From a virus: a DNA stretch of 30,481 nt. The translations under genes and the position numbers were made by a program. This document shows, in pieces, positions 5,385 through 20,539 of the stretch; position 1 is the stretch's first letter, and the number at the start of each line of letters is the position of its first letter. The notes beneath the pieces are model-generated. The model saw only the letters and a program-made list of their open reading frames with translations, was not told the DNA's origin and searched no databases. The DNA lies in IMG/VR virus record IMGVR_UViG_3300020056_000107, positions 1 to 30,481 of that record. The stretch is one strand, 5' to 3'.

Positions 5385-6440
5385 TTAGTCTGCGCTCAAC
5401 GCCTCGTGATAGAGATCATAAAATAAATTTTCCATTGGCTTTGGTTCATTCAAATTAAGATTACCAATATAGTTTTTGATAATTGTAATAGTATCTTCAG
5501 CCTCATTTATTATATCATTATCATCAGAAATGTCAAGGTTAAAATTGTCTTCAACAACTTGCATATGTGCTGGGGCTGCAGCATTGAGTTTATCAATGTA
5601 TAGATCGAAAACATAAGGATTGTTTTTAGTCTTAACAATAACTTTTACATGTTTATCAACTAAGTGAGAAAAATCAACGTTAAGTAATTCTTCTTGATTA
5701 GACTCGCTGTCATCATAAAAAACTTTATGAAACATAGTGTGTGGATTTTTTACATACTCCATTTCACCAGTCTCAGTATCAAGAATGTGGAAACCACGAT
5801 CGTCATTATAATCTGACCACGTCATTTCATACGGTGCACCAAGATAGTGGATGTTATCTTTAGATGATTTGTGATGAAAGTGACCAGAACATACCATGTC
5901 AAACTTTGTAAAGTCACGATGTGATAAACCATGATCGTTCATAGCGCCACGATACATTTCAAATCCTTGGAACTCGAGATGACCAAGAACAACAGAAGCA
6001 TTAGTAGACTTAACAACTTCCATTGCACTTTCATAATTTTGATTATTGATCCAAGGTAGCATCAATACTTTAAGACCATCTAAGTCGACTTCAGTTGCTT
6101 CTTCATACACATCAAATGAGTATTCATTTAAGAGTAAGTTTGGTGCATTGACTCGGTTTGTATTTTTGAAATAGATATCATGATTACCTACAATACAATG
6201 TAATTTAATATCACGTTGTTTAATTTGATCGAACCAATAATCTTTACACCGACTTAACGTGTCATAGTTAACATACTTACGGCGATCAAAAATATCCCCA
6301 AGCTCAACAATTGTTGATATACCATGCTCATCGAGATATGGAAAGAAAAAGTTTTTATAGAACTCAGAAAAGAATTCATGAAATTGTATACTATCACCGC
6401 GAACTCCAAAATGTTGGTCAGTAATTAAAGCTACTTTCAC
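5385..6440 (-). CDS. 47: Recombination endonuclease subunit gp47 (Mre11/SbcD-like)
   Basis: This is a 351-residue calcineurin-type metallophosphoesterase. The phosphoesterase motifs appear in order: DQH (8-10), GDIFD (48-52), GNHD (85-88), GH (152-153) and GHFHH (185-189), all with metal-binding residues intact. It is the nuclease partner of gp46 in DNA end resection. The start codon is GTG, in a GTGA overlap with the gp55 stop and preceded by AGGAG 8 bases upstream, so the start is well supported. The order 55-47-46 matches T4-like phages, and the length is close to T4 gp47. Confidence 0.95.
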   Translation of the reverse strand: MKVALITDQHFGVRGDSIQFHEFFSEFYKNFFFPYLDEHGISTIVELGDIFDRRKYVNYDTLSRCKDYWFDQIKQRDIKLHCIVGNHDIYFKNTNRVNAPNLLLNEYSFDVYEEATEVDLDGLKVLMLPWINNQNYESAMEVVKSTNASVVLGHLEFQGFEMYRGAMNDHGLSHRDFTKFDMVCSGHFHHKSSKDNIHYLGAPYEMTWSDYNDDRGFHILDTETGEMEYVKNPHTMFHKVFYDDSESNQEELLNVDFSHLVDKHVKVIVKTKNNPYVFDLYIDKLNAAAPAHMQVVEDNFNLDISDDNDIINEAEDTITIIKNYIGNLNLNEPKPMENLFYDLYHEALSAD

Positions 6441-6961
6441 TCAGCATCTCCTACAAATTTTTCGACGCCGGCTAGCTTTTTCTCTTTTGGTTTATTTTTC
6501 TTTTCAAACTTATCAATGATTGGCTTCATTTTTTCGTTTGTAATATCAAAGTTAGAATAACCATTACCGCCTTCTTCTTCCAATAAATCACTACTAATAA
6601 CTAAATTTTCTAGAGATTTATATTTTACATACGTTTGCTTCTTTTCTTTTTCAATACGTCGCAAAAAAGCGTACCAAGAAATTTGAGTAAAGTATGCAAA
6701 TGGATTCTTTGATTTTTCAGGATTAAAGCTATGAACTGCGACAACACAATTTTCTAAAGCGTCACTAATCATTTCATCTTTATATGTATAACCGACAAAG
6801 TTACCTTTAGTAGCAAGTTTAGTAGCAATCATCACAAAACAATTACCAATGTTTTCTGGAATGCGAGGAACTGGTTTACCATCAGCTTCTGCTTGCTTAC
6901 ACTTTTCTTTATAGTCGCAAAGCAAACCATAAAATTCTTTATTGTTAATATACTGTGCCAT
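6437..6961 (-). CDS. 55: Late-transcription sigma factor gp55
   Basis: This 174-residue protein, near the length of T4 gp55, is a minimal sigma factor that directs host RNA polymerase to late promoters. Residues 86-109 (NPFAYFTQISWYAFLRRIEKEKK) form the sigma region 2-like core-binding and -10-recognition segment, preceded by an acidic helix (EMISDALENCVVAV). The C-terminus (LAGVEKFVGDAE) is hydrophobic and acidic, as expected if it contacts the sliding clamp as in T4; that contact is inference. It has a strong ribosome binding site (TAGGAG before the ATG). The TATAAATA boxes found before the structural genes in this window are its expected targets. Confidence 0.92.
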   Translation of the reverse strand: MAQYINNKEFYGLLCDYKEKCKQAEADGKPVPRIPENIGNCFVMIATKLATKGNFVGYTYKDEMISDALENCVVAVHSFNPEKSKNPFAYFTQISWYAFLRRIEKEKKQTYVKYKSLENLVISSDLLEEEGGNGYSNFDITNEKMKPIIDKFEKKNKPKEKKLAGVEKFVGDAE

Positions 6962-9292: not shown

Positions 9293-9321
9293 ATTATAAC
9301 ACAAAATTACAAAGAAGTAAA
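9293..9321 (-). promoter_or_regulatory. Sigma70-like promoter for the uvsY-uvsW-55-47-46 operon
   Basis: On the minus strand, TTTACT (9321-9316) is followed by 17 bases and a perfect TATAAT (9298-9293), about 30 bases before the uvsY ATG. The -35 matches four of six consensus bases and overlaps the 3' end of the preceding tail-tube-like gene. No TATAAATA late box is near, so this block is expected to be read by unmodified or middle-mode host polymerase before the late genes. Confidence 0.6.
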
Positions 9322-9825
9322 CTTATATGTAGTAAATCTAAAGCTGGCTGTCGCGGTTATGTATTCAATTGACGTGTCTTGTGTATTCATATCAATGTCT
9401 GTTAAAGTTGTAGGGAATAGATCTTCTATTTCTACTCGAACAACAGGCGTCATTGAACTTGACATAATTAAAAGATAAGCGTCTGAGTATATTCCATCAC
9501 CTGTATAGTTTGGCTTATCTGCTAAATCTTTGTATTGCTTATAATCTTCTGGGAATCCGAGTCCCTTAATCCAATTAAAGATTTCGATATAATTACCAAG
9601 ATCTTCATTAATTTTAAAAGTAACATTGAGTTCACCAAACGTAATATGATCTCCAATAACAGGAATAGCTTTAAATGGTGTTGGTCTATCTGATGTGCCT
9701 AGTGCAACGCCAGGTAATGTTACATTTTGAACAAAGAAATTAAACTCTGGTAGCTTCTTAATACTAAAAGAAAACCCAGTAGGTGACAGCATGTTTTTAT
9801 TGAAGTTTAGATCTGTTAAAGGCAT
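9307..9825 (-). CDS. Tail-tube-fold structural protein (gp19-like paralogue)
   Basis: This 172-residue protein shares the layout of the tail tube protein at 15972-16478: an N-terminal GFSFSIKKLPEFNFFVQNVTLPG strand pair, a central GDHITFGELNVTFKINED(L) hairpin, NYIEIFNWIKGLG helix, an EDY motif and a C-terminal ATASFRFTTYKF strand. This is the beta-barrel fold of gp19, which also occurs in the tube-initiating baseplate proteins gp48 and gp54. It is therefore probably a virion tail component, perhaps the tube-baseplate adaptor or a minor tube protein. It has its own perfect late promoter box 26 bases upstream and stands alone between the gp23 terminators and the uvsY promoter. The fold family is fairly sure; the exact T4 counterpart is not. 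Confidence 0.75.
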   Translation of the reverse strand: MPLTDLNFNKNMLSPTGFSFSIKKLPEFNFFVQNVTLPGVALGTSDRPTPFKAIPVIGDHITFGELNVTFKINEDLGNYIEIFNWIKGLGFPEDYKQYKDLADKPNYTGDGIYSDAYLLIMSSSMTPVVRVEIEDLFPTTLTDIDMNTQDTSIEYITATASFRFTTYKFTSL

Positions 9826-9850: not shown

Positions 9851-9858
9851 TATTTATA
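9851..9858 (-). promoter_or_regulatory. T4-type late promoter (TATAAATA) for the tail-tube-like gene
   Basis: A perfect TATAAATA on the minus strand lies 26 bases before the ATG at 9825 and just past the terminator at 9866-9888. This gives the gene its own late transcript, separate from gp23. Confidence 0.75.
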
Positions 9859-9865
9859 CTACAAT

Positions 9866-9888
9866 AAAAAAGGGGGCCGAAGCCCCCT
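9866..9888 (-). terminator. Rho-independent terminator with C(UUCG)G loop
   Basis: On the minus strand a perfect 7-bp stem (AGGGGGC/GCCCCCT) with the extra-stable UUCG tetraloop is followed by TTTTTATT. It sits downstream of the 30-aa gene and before the late promoter of the tail-tube-like gene, so it ends the capsid transcript completely. Confidence 0.9.
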
Positions 9889-9904: not shown

Positions 9905-9997
9905 CTACAACAACCAGAGCAATACTAAGACCAGCCCTCCTCCTAAAGCTGCTGATGGAAGATGAAGTTTTCCAATCAATGGTAAGTTAAGGTCCAT
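9905..9997 (-). CDS. 30-aa single-span membrane peptide downstream of gp23
   Basis: A 31-codon frame (ATG at 9997-9995, TAG at 9907-9905) encodes MDLNLPLIGKLHLPSAALGG followed by GLVLVLLWLL. It has a short polar and proline-containing head, then a hydrophobic segment from about residue 15 to 30 with a GGG run and a tryptophan near the end, enough for one short membrane span. The ribosome binding site is excellent (GAGGAG, 7 bases before the ATG). A small hairpin, GCCC-GCAT-GGGC (10028-10017), lies just upstream. It falls between two strong terminators directly after the major capsid gene, so only read-through of the first terminator would express it. No family is recognised. A membrane peptide (lysis-related or assembly-related) is possible but unproven. 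Confidence 0.6.
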   Translation of the reverse strand: MDLNLPLIGKLHLPSAALGGGLVLVLLWLL

Positions 9998-10033
9998 AGT
10001 TTTTCTCCTCGTTAATGCCCATGCGGGCGAAAC

Positions 10034-10063
10034 AAAAAAAAGGAGAGACCGAAGCCTCTCCCT
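10034..10063 (-). terminator. Rho-independent terminator after gp23, C(UUCG)G loop
   Basis: The minus strand folds into an 8-bp stem, GGAGAGGC/GUCUCUCC, with a UUCG loop and one G-U wobble, followed by TTTTTTTTG. The wobble is an A-C mismatch on the plus strand, so the hairpin is specific to minus-strand RNA. It begins about 35 bases after the gp23 stop and should attenuate transcription before the 30-aa gene. Confidence 0.88.
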
Positions 10064-10096: not shown

Positions 10097-11440
10097 TTAC
10101 AACAGGTTGGCGACTACAGTACGACGGTAGTAAACGTTAGAGTCTTCCGTAAGAGCACCTGAAGAAGCACCAGCACCAGTGTGGAAAGGATTAGCGACCA
10201 TGCCGTAGCGAGTCTTGAATCCAATCTTAGGCTGGAAGGTGTCTTGGTCAACTGCACGGACCATCTGCAGAGGTACGTATGGGCAGTAGAACAAGCCAGC
10301 ATCAAATGCATTTGAACCCTTATAACCGATAGTCATGTAGTTACCGGTAGTGTAAGGATCGATGTAGACACGATAACGACCATTCAGTACACCAGCGAAG
10401 GTGTTACCAGTATCGTCAACTGCCAAAGAGTTAGAGTTCAGAGCAGGGGTGTAATCAAGAACACCGGCCATTTGAAGAGCAGAAGCTACGTCAGAAGAGC
10501 AGATGATGATGTTACCCTTACCGCGACGAGTTGCTTTTGCAATCGCGTTGGCTTCACGCTCGATGTGGAACATCAAGCCCTTGAACTTCTCTACAGACCA
10601 ACGACCGTTAGCGTCAACGTCAAGGTCAAACTTACCAGCAGTAGTAGTTCCAGCAGAAGAACCCTGTACAGCCGTTACGTTGATCGTACGAATAACTTCA
10701 CGGTTGATTTCAGCCAGGATCTCAGCAGCAAGGATGTTGCTGAGCTCAGCTTCAGCGTCCAGACCATGAACTGCTTTCAGATCTTGCGCCAGCTCTAAGC
10801 TGTAATCAGCCTTCAGAGCACGTGACTTGGCAGTTACAGTTACCTTATCGATAGAGAAGGCCATTTCGCCGAAAGCGAGTGAACTGTTGCTGCCCAGTGC
10901 TTCTGCAGTAGAAGTAGGCATACCGTCAGCGAAGTTGTATACGCCGTTAGCTGCCAGATCACCGTCAGTGTCTGCATCAAAAGAAGTACCAACATTCTTA
11001 TCACCGATAGCATCAGTGCCACCAGAGATAGTAGACTTAGCGGTATTAGCTTCGTTGTAGAATGCCTCGTCGCCAGTCTGGTTAGAATGACGTGACTTCA
11101 TGGCAAAGATGAGGCCAGTAGGACCAGTCATTGGCTGGACACCACAAACGTCATAAGCCATTAAGTTAGGAAGTGCACGACGTACCAAAGAAATCAGTAC
11201 AGGATCGAAACCTTTAATTTCGCCAGCAGTGGCACCCATGCCAGCACCAACAACGTTAGTTGGCGTTTCTGCGAGCAGAGATTGATCAGCACCCATCTCA
11301 GCATTCTCGCGGAGGGCACGCTCGGTGTTCTCAAGAACCATAGCCGTTACAGCGCGCTTGTGTGGATCAGCGATCTCAGGAAGATCAGGATGTGAAATCA
11401 CTGCTTTCCACTTGTTTTGAATTTGCTCATTTAAATTCAT
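10097..11440 (-). CDS. 23: Major capsid protein gp23
   Basis: The 447-residue precursor forms the head shell hexamers. It has the conserved T4-family regions ADPHKRAVTAMVLENTERALRE near the N-terminus, LISLVRRALPNLMAYDVCGVQPMTGPTGLIFAMK around residues 80-115, and the C-terminal GFKTRYGMVANPF. A gp21-type cleavage site (hydrophobic-x-Glu) is visible at LLAE after residue 58, giving a mature N-terminus TPTNVVGAG, analogous to T4 cleavage at Glu65. It is shorter than T4 gp23 (521 residues), as in marine relatives. Synonymous sites look more GC-rich than in neighbouring genes, consistent with strong expression. It has its own TATAAATA late promoter and is followed by a strong terminator. Confidence 0.96.
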   Translation of the reverse strand: MNLNEQIQNKWKAVISHPDLPEIADPHKRAVTAMVLENTERALRENAEMGADQSLLAETPTNVVGAGMGATAGEIKGFDPVLISLVRRALPNLMAYDVCGVQPMTGPTGLIFAMKSRHSNQTGDEAFYNEANTAKSTISGGTDAIGDKNVGTSFDADTDGDLAANGVYNFADGMPTSTAEALGSNSSLAFGEMAFSIDKVTVTAKSRALKADYSLELAQDLKAVHGLDAEAELSNILAAEILAEINREVIRTINVTAVQGSSAGTTTAGKFDLDVDANGRWSVEKFKGLMFHIEREANAIAKATRRGKGNIIICSSDVASALQMAGVLDYTPALNSNSLAVDDTGNTFAGVLNGRYRVYIDPYTTGNYMTIGYKGSNAFDAGLFYCPYVPLQMVRAVDQDTFQPKIGFKTRYGMVANPFHTGAGASSGALTEDSNVYYRRTVVANLL

Positions 11441-11476: not shown

Positions 11477-11484
11477 TATTTATA
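11477..11484 (-). promoter_or_regulatory. T4-type late promoter (TATAAATA) for gp23
   Basis: A perfect TATAAATA on the minus strand lies 37 bases before the gp23 ATG, in the 50-base gap after the gp22 stop. An AGGAG ribosome binding site lies between the two. The box gives gp23 an independent late transcript. Confidence 0.8.
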
Positions 11485-16507: not shown

Positions 16508-16515
16508 TATTTATT
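16508..16515 (-). promoter_or_regulatory. Late promoter (AATAAATA) for gp19
   Basis: AATAAATA on the minus strand, one base off consensus, lies 30 bases before the gp19 ATG and overlaps the last bases of gp18. It would give the abundant tube protein its own late transcript ended by the terminator at 15921-15964. Confidence 0.6.
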
Positions 16516-18808
16516 AAAAATTACCGATAACTTCGGAGAATTCTACCCCAGTTCGTACAGCGACAAAGTTGAGCTGGATGAAGTTGATTGAGCGAGCCGG
16601 CTTGATGTAAATATCACCAATAAACTCGTTACGATCAATTACTTCGCCAGTGTTGTTTGTCTCGTCACATACTACTACGAAGTCAGTAATACCTCGTCGC
16701 CCTTGAACATCTCGCAAGAATGGAGAAACAAGGTTAACAAAAGAAGACCGAGTAAACTCATCATTGAATTCAAAGAGAGTAAACTTAGCAGCAGTTGCAA
16801 TCGCTTTCTCGAGGACGATAAAGAGGCGTCGTACGTTAATTCGGTCAAAGGCAGAAGGCTTGGCAAGAAGAGTCTTGTCGCCAAACATTACAATACCTTG
16901 GCCTGGGAAGTTAACAATTGGGTTGACACCATTCTTATAGAGAATATCTCTTTCAGCTTTACGTGGGTTCCAAGCCAACTTAATAACATTCTTAATGTTA
17001 CCACGGTTGAAACCAGCAGGTGACCACCATGGATCGCGTGATTCATCTGTGTAAGCACAGAGACCAGCAGTGTCGCCATTAATTGGTACCCAACGATAAA
17101 CATCATTATACTTATCATACATGTACTTATAACCACTATCAAGTACACCATAAGAAGATGATCGCATTGCATTTCTAAACTGTACAACGTCAGCTTCTTC
17201 ATCTTCGAAAACGTTATTTACAACATCATTGTAATGAGGTGAAGTAAAGACTACACAATCCTTACGCTTTTCAGCAATATTATCAATTAAGTAATTGCCG
17301 AGTTGCTCACCATGTACACCACCACGTGACTTACCAGTCAATACAAGAGAAATGTCAATGTCTTCAGCAGACTTAAATACATCGTATGACTGAATAACTG
17401 CGCCAATTGATGCGCTGCTCTCGTTTGGACCATCACGTCCACCAATCATTGACTTGGTGTATGGAGTAGTATTAGTTGAGGTGGCCAAATCATCAGCATC
17501 TGCAGAAGCAGCACCTGATAAATCGGTAGCCCACCATATATATCTTGAATTATTATTCAATACCTCTTTATAGTAAAGAGAAGCACCGTCTTCTGACTTA
17601 GCGTCAATAGCGCGTGACAAACCACCCCATACTTCTAAGATAGTGCCAGGAACTCCTGAAATTTTACCATCTTCGTCAGTTACAACAACATGAATTTCAT
17701 CTTGTGCAGAGGTGTTACCATTTAATAATTGGTAAGTTGTTTGACCTGGCGCGCCTTCAACGAGACCCCAGTTATCCCAGTAACGCTCAAAAGAGCTAGG
17801 AGTCGTTGCAGTTGAAAGACTATAGCGATCATCAAAAGTAATTGCAACAGTGGCCTCGCCGGTCTCAGTAGAAGCTACTTCAGTTTTGGTTACTGAACCA
17901 ATAGAAGTAATAGTAAGGTACTCTGTACCAATTGAGCTATTACCAACTTTGATTTTATCACCAACAGTCAGTAAAGCAATAGCTGAAGTTGCAACAGCAG
18001 CTGATGAGTTAGCATCACCAGTAGCACTATTTGAAATGGTGAGAGTTGCGGTATTAGATCCTACAACAAACGTTAAAGATTCGTCTTCGGTGTTTGCAGC
18101 ATCAAACGTAGTTAAATCAATTGAACTATTAAATGCAGCCGTACTATCACACACAGAAACTTTTAATGAGTTACCTAATGCACCTGGATATTTTGCAATA
18201 AACTGTACATCATCATCAAAAGATCGTGGTGAACCATTTGCTGATTCATAGTTATCTTCGTTTTTGACAATATGTGAAGCAAGATTAGCAACATTAGTAT
18301 TTGCAATTGCATTGAATACATATTCATCATCAAAAACTTGAATGCTTGCTGCAGCGTCTGTTGCAGTAGGAGCAGAAGTTAATTCAAAAACCGTTGAATT
18401 TGTTACTGCGTTTACAGTAGCAGACGCTGGAATACCAGGACCAAATACTGCCATACCTGCAACAACTGTAATAGCTGGAGCGGCCGAAAGTGTGACTGTG
18501 TTGTTTCCGCTTGACAAGGCGGCAGTCGCAGTTACTGTATTTCCTACAGTAGTACCCGCGCGACTTACATGCAAGCGATTACTATAAGCAAGATAACTTG
18601 CAGCTGTAAAGAACGTTTCTGCGTTAAAATTAGATGGCTTACCATAACGGGAAACGAGCTCGTCTTCACTAACTACGAGCGTAGATTTGCCCAATGGTCC
18701 CCAGCGAAATACACCACCAATTGCTGCATCGGTAGTTGCAACCGCAGGGATAACAGTAGTCAGATCAATTTCCGTTACGTTAACACCTGGACTTAATTGA
18801 AAAGGCAT
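16514..18808 (-). CDS. 18: Tail sheath protein gp18
   Basis: The product is the 764-residue contractile sheath subunit. The N-terminus PFQLSPGVNVTEIDLTTVIP followed by GGVFRWGPLGKSTLV and the C-terminal GRRGITDFVVVCDETNNTGE ... PARSINFIQLNFVAVRTG match phage sheath proteins. It is about 100 residues longer than T4 gp18 (659). The extra length lies in Ser/Thr/Ala-rich beta segments at about residues 90-330, which are probably domains on the outer sheath surface. A perfect late box lies 57 bases upstream, and gp19 follows. Confidence 0.95.
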   Translation of the reverse strand: MPFQLSPGVNVTEIDLTTVIPAVATTDAAIGGVFRWGPLGKSTLVVSEDELVSRYGKPSNFNAETFFTAASYLAYSNRLHVSRAGTTVGNTVTATAALSSGNNTVTLSAAPAITVVAGMAVFGPGIPASATVNAVTNSTVFELTSAPTATDAAASIQVFDDEYVFNAIANTNVANLASHIVKNEDNYESANGSPRSFDDDVQFIAKYPGALGNSLKVSVCDSTAAFNSSIDLTTFDAANTEDESLTFVVGSNTATLTISNSATGDANSSAAVATSAIALLTVGDKIKVGNSSIGTEYLTITSIGSVTKTEVASTETGEATVAITFDDRYSLSTATTPSSFERYWDNWGLVEGAPGQTTYQLLNGNTSAQDEIHVVVTDEDGKISGVPGTILEVWGGLSRAIDAKSEDGASLYYKEVLNNNSRYIWWATDLSGAASADADDLATSTNTTPYTKSMIGGRDGPNESSASIGAVIQSYDVFKSAEDIDISLVLTGKSRGGVHGEQLGNYLIDNIAEKRKDCVVFTSPHYNDVVNNVFEDEEADVVQFRNAMRSSSYGVLDSGYKYMYDKYNDVYRWVPINGDTAGLCAYTDESRDPWWSPAGFNRGNIKNVIKLAWNPRKAERDILYKNGVNPIVNFPGQGIVMFGDKTLLAKPSAFDRINVRRLFIVLEKAIATAAKFTLFEFNDEFTRSSFVNLVSPFLRDVQGRRGITDFVVVCDETNNTGEVIDRNEFIGDIYIKPARSINFIQLNFVAVRTGVEFSEVIGNF

Positions 18809-18892: not shown

Positions 18893-20539
18893 CTAATCAT
18901 CAAACATCAAAAATGAGTCGCCCTTAGTAGAAACTACTGGTGCCTCTTCATATTGATCCATACCATTATCAATTATACCGAAAGGAGTTAACTCATTCAG
19001 TACTTGTTCGTCATTCATGTCTCTTAGTTGACTAATTGTATTTATATCTGTCAGCTCTTTAAAGAATTTTTGGTTACTTAACCAAGAAAATAAAACTAAA
19101 CACATGACAAGGTCATCATGCGATCCAGTCTCAGCTTCCCAACTTGTACCTTTCTTACTAAACGTTGATAATTCTTTAATAGTATTAAAATCATTGATAA
19201 TAACTTGGTTTTGTTCTACGAGTAATTTAAGCACAGAACAACCAAGCGATTTAACTGACTTTGTTGTTCTTACACCTTTATCACAACTTGTAGAAAAACC
19301 AGCAATAAGTCGTTTTCCACTTCTTCCATTGTTTTCGGTGAATAACATATTTTCATATTCATAATCTTCAAACAGGGTAGTAGAAACTTGCTCACCGATA
19401 TCATTAATTTCTACCATTACTTGTGCCATATTAAAATGTTTTGCAATTTGGAAAATCATTGCAGCATAGTCAGTAGGTGTAATCATATTATTACGATACA
19501 CTGCTACTTGATTATATGGCATAGTTGATACATCTATCACCTGAAATGCTGAAAAGTCTAATCCTTTACCACGAGATACGTCAACAACAATTGTGTATGT
19601 ATGTCCAGGCTTGGGTGGATAATATAGTGACAATCCATCTTTTTCGTGAATTGGTTCTCTGTGTACTAATTCTTTTAACTTCCAACCAGCAATAAGAGTA
19701 CCACTACTACCAAGAAACTCACATTCCATTTCTTGAGCGAATTTTTGTGTATCAAAATCCATTGCGGCAAGAGTTTCATCCCGCCATTTGTCATCTCTGC
19801 CTGGTACGTCTTTCCATTGTACTTTTACTAATTCATAACCATTAATTCTCTCCTCAGCACCTTTTACAGTCTTATAAAAATGATTAAGACCATTTGGTGT
19901 TGAAGTAAGAAGAATTTTGGTGGTTGTACCAGATGAGATCGTAGGCATTACTGAAGCGAAAAATTCGTCCCAGTTTTCTACGAATGCAGTTTCATCAATA
20001 TACAGAAAGGATACTGACTTACCACGAATTGCAGAAGACGATGTCGCTCCTGCTAAAATCTTAGATCCGTTTTCAAATTCTACGGATCCTTTGTTCCATT
20101 CCAAAACACCTTGTTGCATCCACTTAGGCAACGCTTCATAAGCTGTTTTAATCCTGTCCAAGATTTCACGAGCAGCATCTCCTTTATTTGCCAAAAGAGC
20201 CACAAGCTTATGATCATTAAACAGAATGTAATGAAGTATAAGACAGACTGCAGTCGTTGTTTTACCCGCCTGGCGACTTGTAACCACGCAGGTCCTACGG
20301 TTGTCTGTGGTTTTTTGAATGATGTCCTTCTGATAATCATAGAGTTGTATAGGTATAAGACCTTTATCTACGTGGACAATTTGAATATATTTCTCAGAAA
20401 AATATATAGGATCACCAGCACACTTTACAAATTCATGCACCATATCCTCGGTCCAATTAATATCAACATTGTTTCTTTTTAAGTTGACATTACCGAGATA
20501 TGATTTGTAATTATCAATATCAGGTATTTGGTTCATCAT
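18893..20539 (-). CDS. 17: Terminase large subunit gp17
   Basis: This 548-residue packaging motor pumps DNA into the prohead through gp20 and cuts the concatemer. The ATPase domain has Walker A SRQAGKT (88-94), Walker B FLYIDE (178-183) and coupling motif TSTP (212-215). The nuclease domain has the RNase H-like acidic site at D320 (VVDVSRG), E378/D380 (EIND) and HDD (474-476). All catalytic residues are present. The start is one of two adjacent ATGs (20539 or 20536) overlapping the gp16 end by about 20 bases. The ribosome binding site is weak, so translation is probably coupled to gp16. Confidence 0.97.
   Translation of the reverse strand: MMNQIPDIDNYKSYLGNVNLKRNNVDINWTEDMVHEFVKCAGDPIYFSEKYIQIVHVDKGLIPIQLYDYQKDIIQKTTDNRRTCVVTSRQAGKTTTAVCLILHYILFNDHKLVALLANKGDAAREILDRIKTAYEALPKWMQQGVLEWNKGSVEFENGSKILAGATSSSAIRGKSVSFLYIDETAFVENWDEFFASVMPTISSGTTTKILLTSTPNGLNHFYKTVKGAEERINGYELVKVQWKDVPGRDDKWRDETLAAMDFDTQKFAQEMECEFLGSSGTLIAGWKLKELVHREPIHEKDGLSLYYPPKPGHTYTIVVDVSRGKGLDFSAFQVIDVSTMPYNQVAVYRNNMITPTDYAAMIFQIAKHFNMAQVMVEINDIGEQVSTTLFEDYEYENMLFTENNGRSGKRLIAGFSTSCDKGVRTTKSVKSLGCSVLKLLVEQNQVIINDFNTIKELSTFSKKGTSWEAETGSHDDLVMCLVLFSWLSNQKFFKELTDINTISQLRDMNDEQVLNELTPFGIIDNGMDQYEEAPVVSTKGDSFLMFDD

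Follow-up and report, generated by a model that had tools for sequence, protein, structure and literature searches.

The minus-strand frame at positions 9905-9997 of the window, the whole 30,481-nucleotide stretch of viral DNA analysed here, is a genuine protein-coding gene, as settled by its homologues, because 11 distinct intact homologous coding sequences share a fixed length and purifying selection. Together with its flanking signals it very probably forms a T4-like phage cassette, whose order in most copies is late promoter, short 5′ hairpin of four base pairs, ribosome binding site, 30 codons and terminator, recombined at terminator/late-promoter seams. During late infection it would yield a small peptide of the inner membrane. 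Our favoured explanation as a whole, i.e. this cassette supplying a late accessory inner-membrane peptide with a membrane protein as its docking partner, comes close to an even call without quite reaching it. Conserved 30-codon phage genes thus go unannotated in the best-studied T4-like gene block.

Frame, signals and neighbouring genes in the window

The peptide gene is located between the major capsid gene and a tail-tube gene, and the following features were assigned:

9905..9997, minus strand: peptide gene, single-span membrane peptide MDLNLPLIGKLHLPSAALGGGLVLVLLWLL, 30 aa and stop
10005..10010, minus strand: ribosome binding site GAGGAG, 7-base spacer to the ATG
10017..10028, minus strand: leader hairpin GCCC-GCAT-GGGC, with covariation and cassette specificity
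10032..10063, minus strand: major capsid gene terminator, stem 10040-10063 and T run
9871..9888, minus strand: stem of the peptide gene terminator, followed by a T run
9851..9858, minus strand: exact TATAAATA, late promoter for the downstream tail-tube gene
10097..11440, minus strand: major capsid protein gp23, upstream neighbour
11477..11484, minus strand: gp23 late promoter TATAAATA
9307..9825, minus strand: tail tube protein (gp19-like), downstream neighbour, phrog_45, E=1.5e-30
6437..6961, minus strand: gp55-like late sigma factor, phrog_234, E=1.1e-56

The peptide comprises 30 residues (31 codons counting the stop), and residues 16-30 form its hydrophobic stretch. A single-sequence AlphaFold2 model gave one helix (residues 4-29) with a mean pLDDT of 77, which says little. 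The preliminary description had proposed an unannotated gene for a single-span hydrophobic peptide below the usual gene-calling length, placed after the major capsid gene, with a GAGGAG site at 7-base spacing and terminators on both sides. All of this was borne out by the open reading frame and its homologues, by the position of gp23 and by the signals at 10005-10010, 10040-10063 and 9871-9888. Its expectation of gp24 or nothing at this place in a T4-like phage was wrong: in the window the tail-tube gene is followed by UvsY and then UvsW, and marine relatives show the order gp23 - tail tube or gp3 - UvsY - UvsW, often with other small genes in the slot after gp23.

As a gp55-like factor is encoded in the window, T4-type late transcription is expected. 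The exact motif TATAAATA occurs six times in the window, always on the minus strand, and five of the six are located 33-64 bases ahead of a start codon. The terminase gene contains an exact TATAAATA in its 3′ part (19039-19046, coding strand), which may serve as an internal late promoter of the tail sheath gene. The tail sheath protein itself (16514-18808) has 764 residues versus the 496 positions of the PHROG profile that it spans, and therefore carries large insertions.

Dinucleotide-preserving shuffles of the 271-base slot yielded a ribosome binding site with a frame of 28 aa or more in 73 of 4000 cases and a hydrophobic frame with a ribosome binding site in 5 of 4000, so that the frame is unlikely to have arisen by chance alone.

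Homologues and selection

Close relatives sharing the slot were retrieved by a tail-tube protein search. A tblastn search of phage isolates with the 30-residue peptide found none; since so short a query makes a weak test, degenerate DNA patterns and a profile were used, and further copies were obtained via degenerate patterns of the peptide and a pattern of a neighbouring element. The collections searched were metagenomic, and the patterns used would overlook more distant members. An intact copy was present in 20 contigs (window included), corresponding to 11 distinct coding sequences and nine distinct proteins, and the intact carrier records that were searched matched the peptide profile at E values of 1e-16 to 1e-19. 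Every intact copy encodes exactly 30 residues, and the window copy and the 10 other distinct coding sequences fit LP-x-x-GK-x-H-x-PS-x3-GGG, with 15 invariant positions (M1, L5, P6, G9, K10, H12, P14, S15, G19, G20, G21, L24, L26, L29 and L30). An AGGAG-type ribosome binding site is present in all copies, the gene is single-copy per carrier record, and none of the five window-like contigs has a disrupted coding sequence.

Between the window and L117, 15 of 23 synonymous versus 9 of 67 non-synonymous sites are changed (Fisher p=5e-6). A synonymous excess was also seen for the window versus L091 (p=0.002) and for L091 versus L118 (p=0.005), and it was merely suggestive for L115 versus L126 (p=0.06), all p values being single comparisons of mutually dependent sequence pairs. 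The dN/dS ratio was ~0.1-0.35 for most diverged non-saturated pairs. The comparison of relatives downstream of gp23 that had been suggested as a check therefore returned copies at the same place, with far more synonymous than non-synonymous change. Absence or disruption of the frame in close relatives had been named as evidence against the gene, and this was encountered in part: several close relatives are without it and in one contig (L089/L111) the frame is truncated through a deletion, while the other copies are intact.

No copy was obtained when 50 capsid relatives were searched over their whole records, because the cassette, or its contig end, is missing there. A profile search of nine complete isolate phage genomes did not find the peptide in any of them, and one pattern scan of bacterial genomes gave chance matches only. 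Relaxed-pattern matches in L112, L119, L127, L128 and L150-L157 were rejected as chance, as they lie inside long or unrelated frames. The peptide had no PHROGs match at E<=10 and no match beyond chance in Pfam and NCBIfam, where one relative gave a sub-threshold chance match to Pfam Orthoreo_P10; an Rfam scan of the window and carriers returned only tRNAs and a chance snoRNA match. The idea of a cyanophage host was unsupported, since psbA did not turn up in the searched carrier records, which include several fragments.

Genomic settings, seams and leader hairpin

The peptide gene occupies the gp23 - tail-tube slot in the window group, L113, L114, L116, L118 and L120-L125, the slot position of L117, L122, L123 and L124 being judged via matching flanks. 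In L108/L110, L115 and L126 the gene stands alone in an orientation opposite to its neighbours, and the same peptide unit is thus found at two unrelated genomic places. The L110 copy is located near a glycosyltransferase and a clamp loader, the L115 copy near an alternative oxidase. This phage-borne alternative oxidase gene (L115:4862-5428; PF01786, E=1.5e-70) adjoins the peptide cassette, and a halogenase-like (flavin-dependent) gene, recognised by eye only, lies near the cassette at L110:10027-11469. In the phage of L110, gp23 is located elsewhere and its gp23 - tail-tube slot is filled by another small gene, which encodes an unrelated 140-residue secreted-looking protein (L149:958-1380).

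The same neighbours without the peptide were found in L087, L088, L090, L092, L093, L094 and L102. When L087 and L093, both empty at this place, were aligned to carriers, the first terminator plus TATAAATAATA ran straight into the sequence after the second TATAAATAATA; read from these junctions, one unit between direct repeats of TATAAATAATA is lost or, conversely, gained. Because close relatives lost it between the two repeats, the gene is considered accessory. Among 61 distinct slots, 36 measure 150 bases or less, and the longer ones hold diverse small genes. Judged by this content, small cassettes have a hotspot in the gp23 - tail-tube slot, where late ones are traded. In L098 the slot carries a cassette for a 111-residue secreted protein, whose gene stands alone there and after the peptide cassette in L101. 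This cysteine-bearing protein (MKYVLAFAMFLSASVVADTVV...; L098:2601-2937 and L101) is encoded behind a late promoter. The closest capsid relative (L001, gp23 85% identical) has a different 61-residue gene in the slot (L001:1994-2179), located behind its own TATAAATA, and the encoded protein (MEDKQSTFEMSLRVLGNEF...) has one hydrophobic span. Homing endonuclease-like proteins of the GIY-YIG type, recognised by eye only, are encoded in the gp23 slot of L051, L053 and L066.

Promoter-terminator cassettes known as PeSL were reportedly described by Arbiol et al. in 2010 and by Comeau et al. in 2014. PeSL cassettes of T4-type phages use an intergenic terminator stem-loop plus promoter as repeated seams for small-gene swaps (PMC4503421). 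The likeness consists of a repeated seam with gene gain and loss, the present and absent peptide alleles being joined at TATAAATAATA. The promoter of PeSL cassettes is early, whereas the seam of the peptide cassette consists of a terminator and the late TATAAATA and lies within a late structural block; in relatives, the TATAAATA ahead of the tail-tube gene forms the right-hand seam.

The stem of the leader hairpin is paired in nine of nine distinct leaders, with compensatory changes at three of its four pairs. Behind an exact TATAAATA, it was present in all five distinct peptide leaders versus 1 of 87 other late leaders among the loci compared, so that it belongs to the peptide cassette; the gp23 leader of the window is without it. 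The covarying 5′ hairpin and the late-promoter seams thereby provide a simple signature to find more such cassettes. An exact TATAAATA is located directly ahead of the hairpin in L113, L114, L116, L118 and L120-type copies. At the same place, L117/L125 carry the one-mismatch motif AATAAATA and L110, L115 and L126 a CTAAATA-type motif, which resembles the CTAAATAGTA ahead of the tail-tube gene in the phage of L110. Given a promoter few bases upstream, the RNA would begin at or shortly before the hairpin, which may stabilise the short mRNA.

In the window, and likewise in all five contigs of its lineage, no exact TATAAATA is present between the first terminator and the ribosome binding site; the hairpin was kept despite this. 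Read-through from the capsid gene, which had been proposed to set the dose of the peptide, is therefore plausible in the window, and expression in this lineage would depend on it. For the family the proposal did not hold: five distinct relatives have their own exact TATAAATA, and as relatives carry exact, one-mismatch or CTAAATA-type motifs, read-through is not family-wide. The window copy, with no recognisable late promoter, may be weakly expressed or decaying.

Possible roles of the peptide

The conserved N-terminal part of 13-15 residues (LP-hydrophobic-hydrophobic-GK-x-H-x-PS) is probably cytoplasmic, because K10 and H12 are on that side, and would be followed by a short Gly-Gly-Gly helix ending in the membrane at the C-terminus. 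With 15-17 residues, the C-terminal hydrophobic stretch is rather short to cross the membrane fully and might alternatively be interfacial or self-assembling. Conservation of polar N-terminal residues and of the GGG points to a specific partner. The preliminary description had suggested a lysis, membrane-remodelling or assembly peptide; close relatives that do not carry the gene speak against an essential part in lysis or head assembly. Through its N-terminal motif and GGG face, the peptide may dock on one larger membrane protein or complex and thereby adjust late timing or the physiology of the host membrane; a generic pore is the less favoured mode. CydX, KdpF, AcrZ and MgtS are bacterial membrane proteins of ~30-50 residues with a single span that dock on a larger complex. 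The peptide resembles them in size, in its predicted single span and in having invariant positions beyond plain hydrophobicity, but it has no sequence relation to them, is encoded by a phage, and its docking is putative. Function as a docking membrane peptide, similar to such small regulatory proteins, is proposed tentatively, with the balance tilted somewhat against it. Whether tiny phage membrane peptides engage one partner or damage membranes in general can be tested directly through the residue pattern. We consider it rather doubtful, although conceivable, that the copies represent a new family of mobile late 30-residue membrane peptides among uncultured T4-like phages, spread as hairpin-led mini-cassettes via terminator/late-promoter seams and acting late in infection on a conserved host membrane complex by a mechanism new for phages.

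Of the rivals to a docking peptide, lysis timing was ranked ahead of exclusion and assembly. Here the product would be a very small holin, pinholin, antiholin or timing helper that perturbs the inner membrane late, consistent with the late promoter of most copies, the membrane helix and the very small size. Like holins and pinholins it would be late, small and, by prediction, membrane-inserted, but it is accessory in its clade and matches no holin family in Pfam or PHROGs; to our knowledge, it is shorter than any holin. Close relatives with matching neighbour genes lack it or carry it truncated, which argues against a sole holin, and no endolysin was recognised among the neighbours. Short type I toxins likewise act on membranes: the short hydrophobic peptides IbsC (19 residues), ShoB (26 residues) and TisB depolarise or perforate them, and according to a review sequence conservation is lacking in type I toxins (PMC8309996). 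The phage peptide shares the single hydrophobic helix of ~19-30 residues with these toxins, but differs by its late promoter, its GGG and a strongly conserved polar N-terminal motif; no Rfam family indicative of an antisense RNA antitoxin was recognised in the loci scanned. A role in lysis is thus considered unlikely, while deserving attention.

The cassette is accessory, patchily distributed and self-contained, brings its own promoter and terminator and occurs at several genomic places, all of which would also suit a moron for superinfection exclusion or host takeover, altering the envelope and blocking injection by other phages. Whereas imm and sp, the classical exclusion genes of T4, act early, the peptide gene has a late promoter; similarity to known exclusion proteins was not found either, and this reading is quite improbable. 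Even less probable is a peptide for head or virion assembly, regulated together with gp23 and aiding membrane-bound prohead assembly: late timing and the position immediately behind gp23 in the window group and relatives fit, but in L110, L115 and L126 the gene lies apart from head genes and opposite to its neighbours, and close relatives manage without it. A leader peptide/attenuator or a chance frame between terminators, suggested by the short frame with a terminator immediately after it, deserves hardly any credence in view of amino-acid-level purifying selection and fixed length, and an attenuator was rejected because the gene past the terminator runs the opposite way in L110, L115 and L126, leaving nothing to attenuate in these three carriers.

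In the same three carriers, a strongly conserved element of ~60 bases, CAGTTTTCCCACTTACTCAGGTGACGGTGCG..TACCGACCAGAGCGAGT (L110:8526-8580, L115:4214-4265 and L126:4344-4395), is located between the peptide gene and its divergent neighbour. It has no Rfam match, can fold into a hairpin, and is possibly a leader RNA or promoter element. The region around it matched 107 phage records, nearly all of Synechococcus phages, and no annotated feature lay under the matches listed. In S-CAM22 and C48C1 it adjoins accessory genes or a tRNA, and in S-RIM44 a short match is located inside a gene annotated as tryptophan halogenase.
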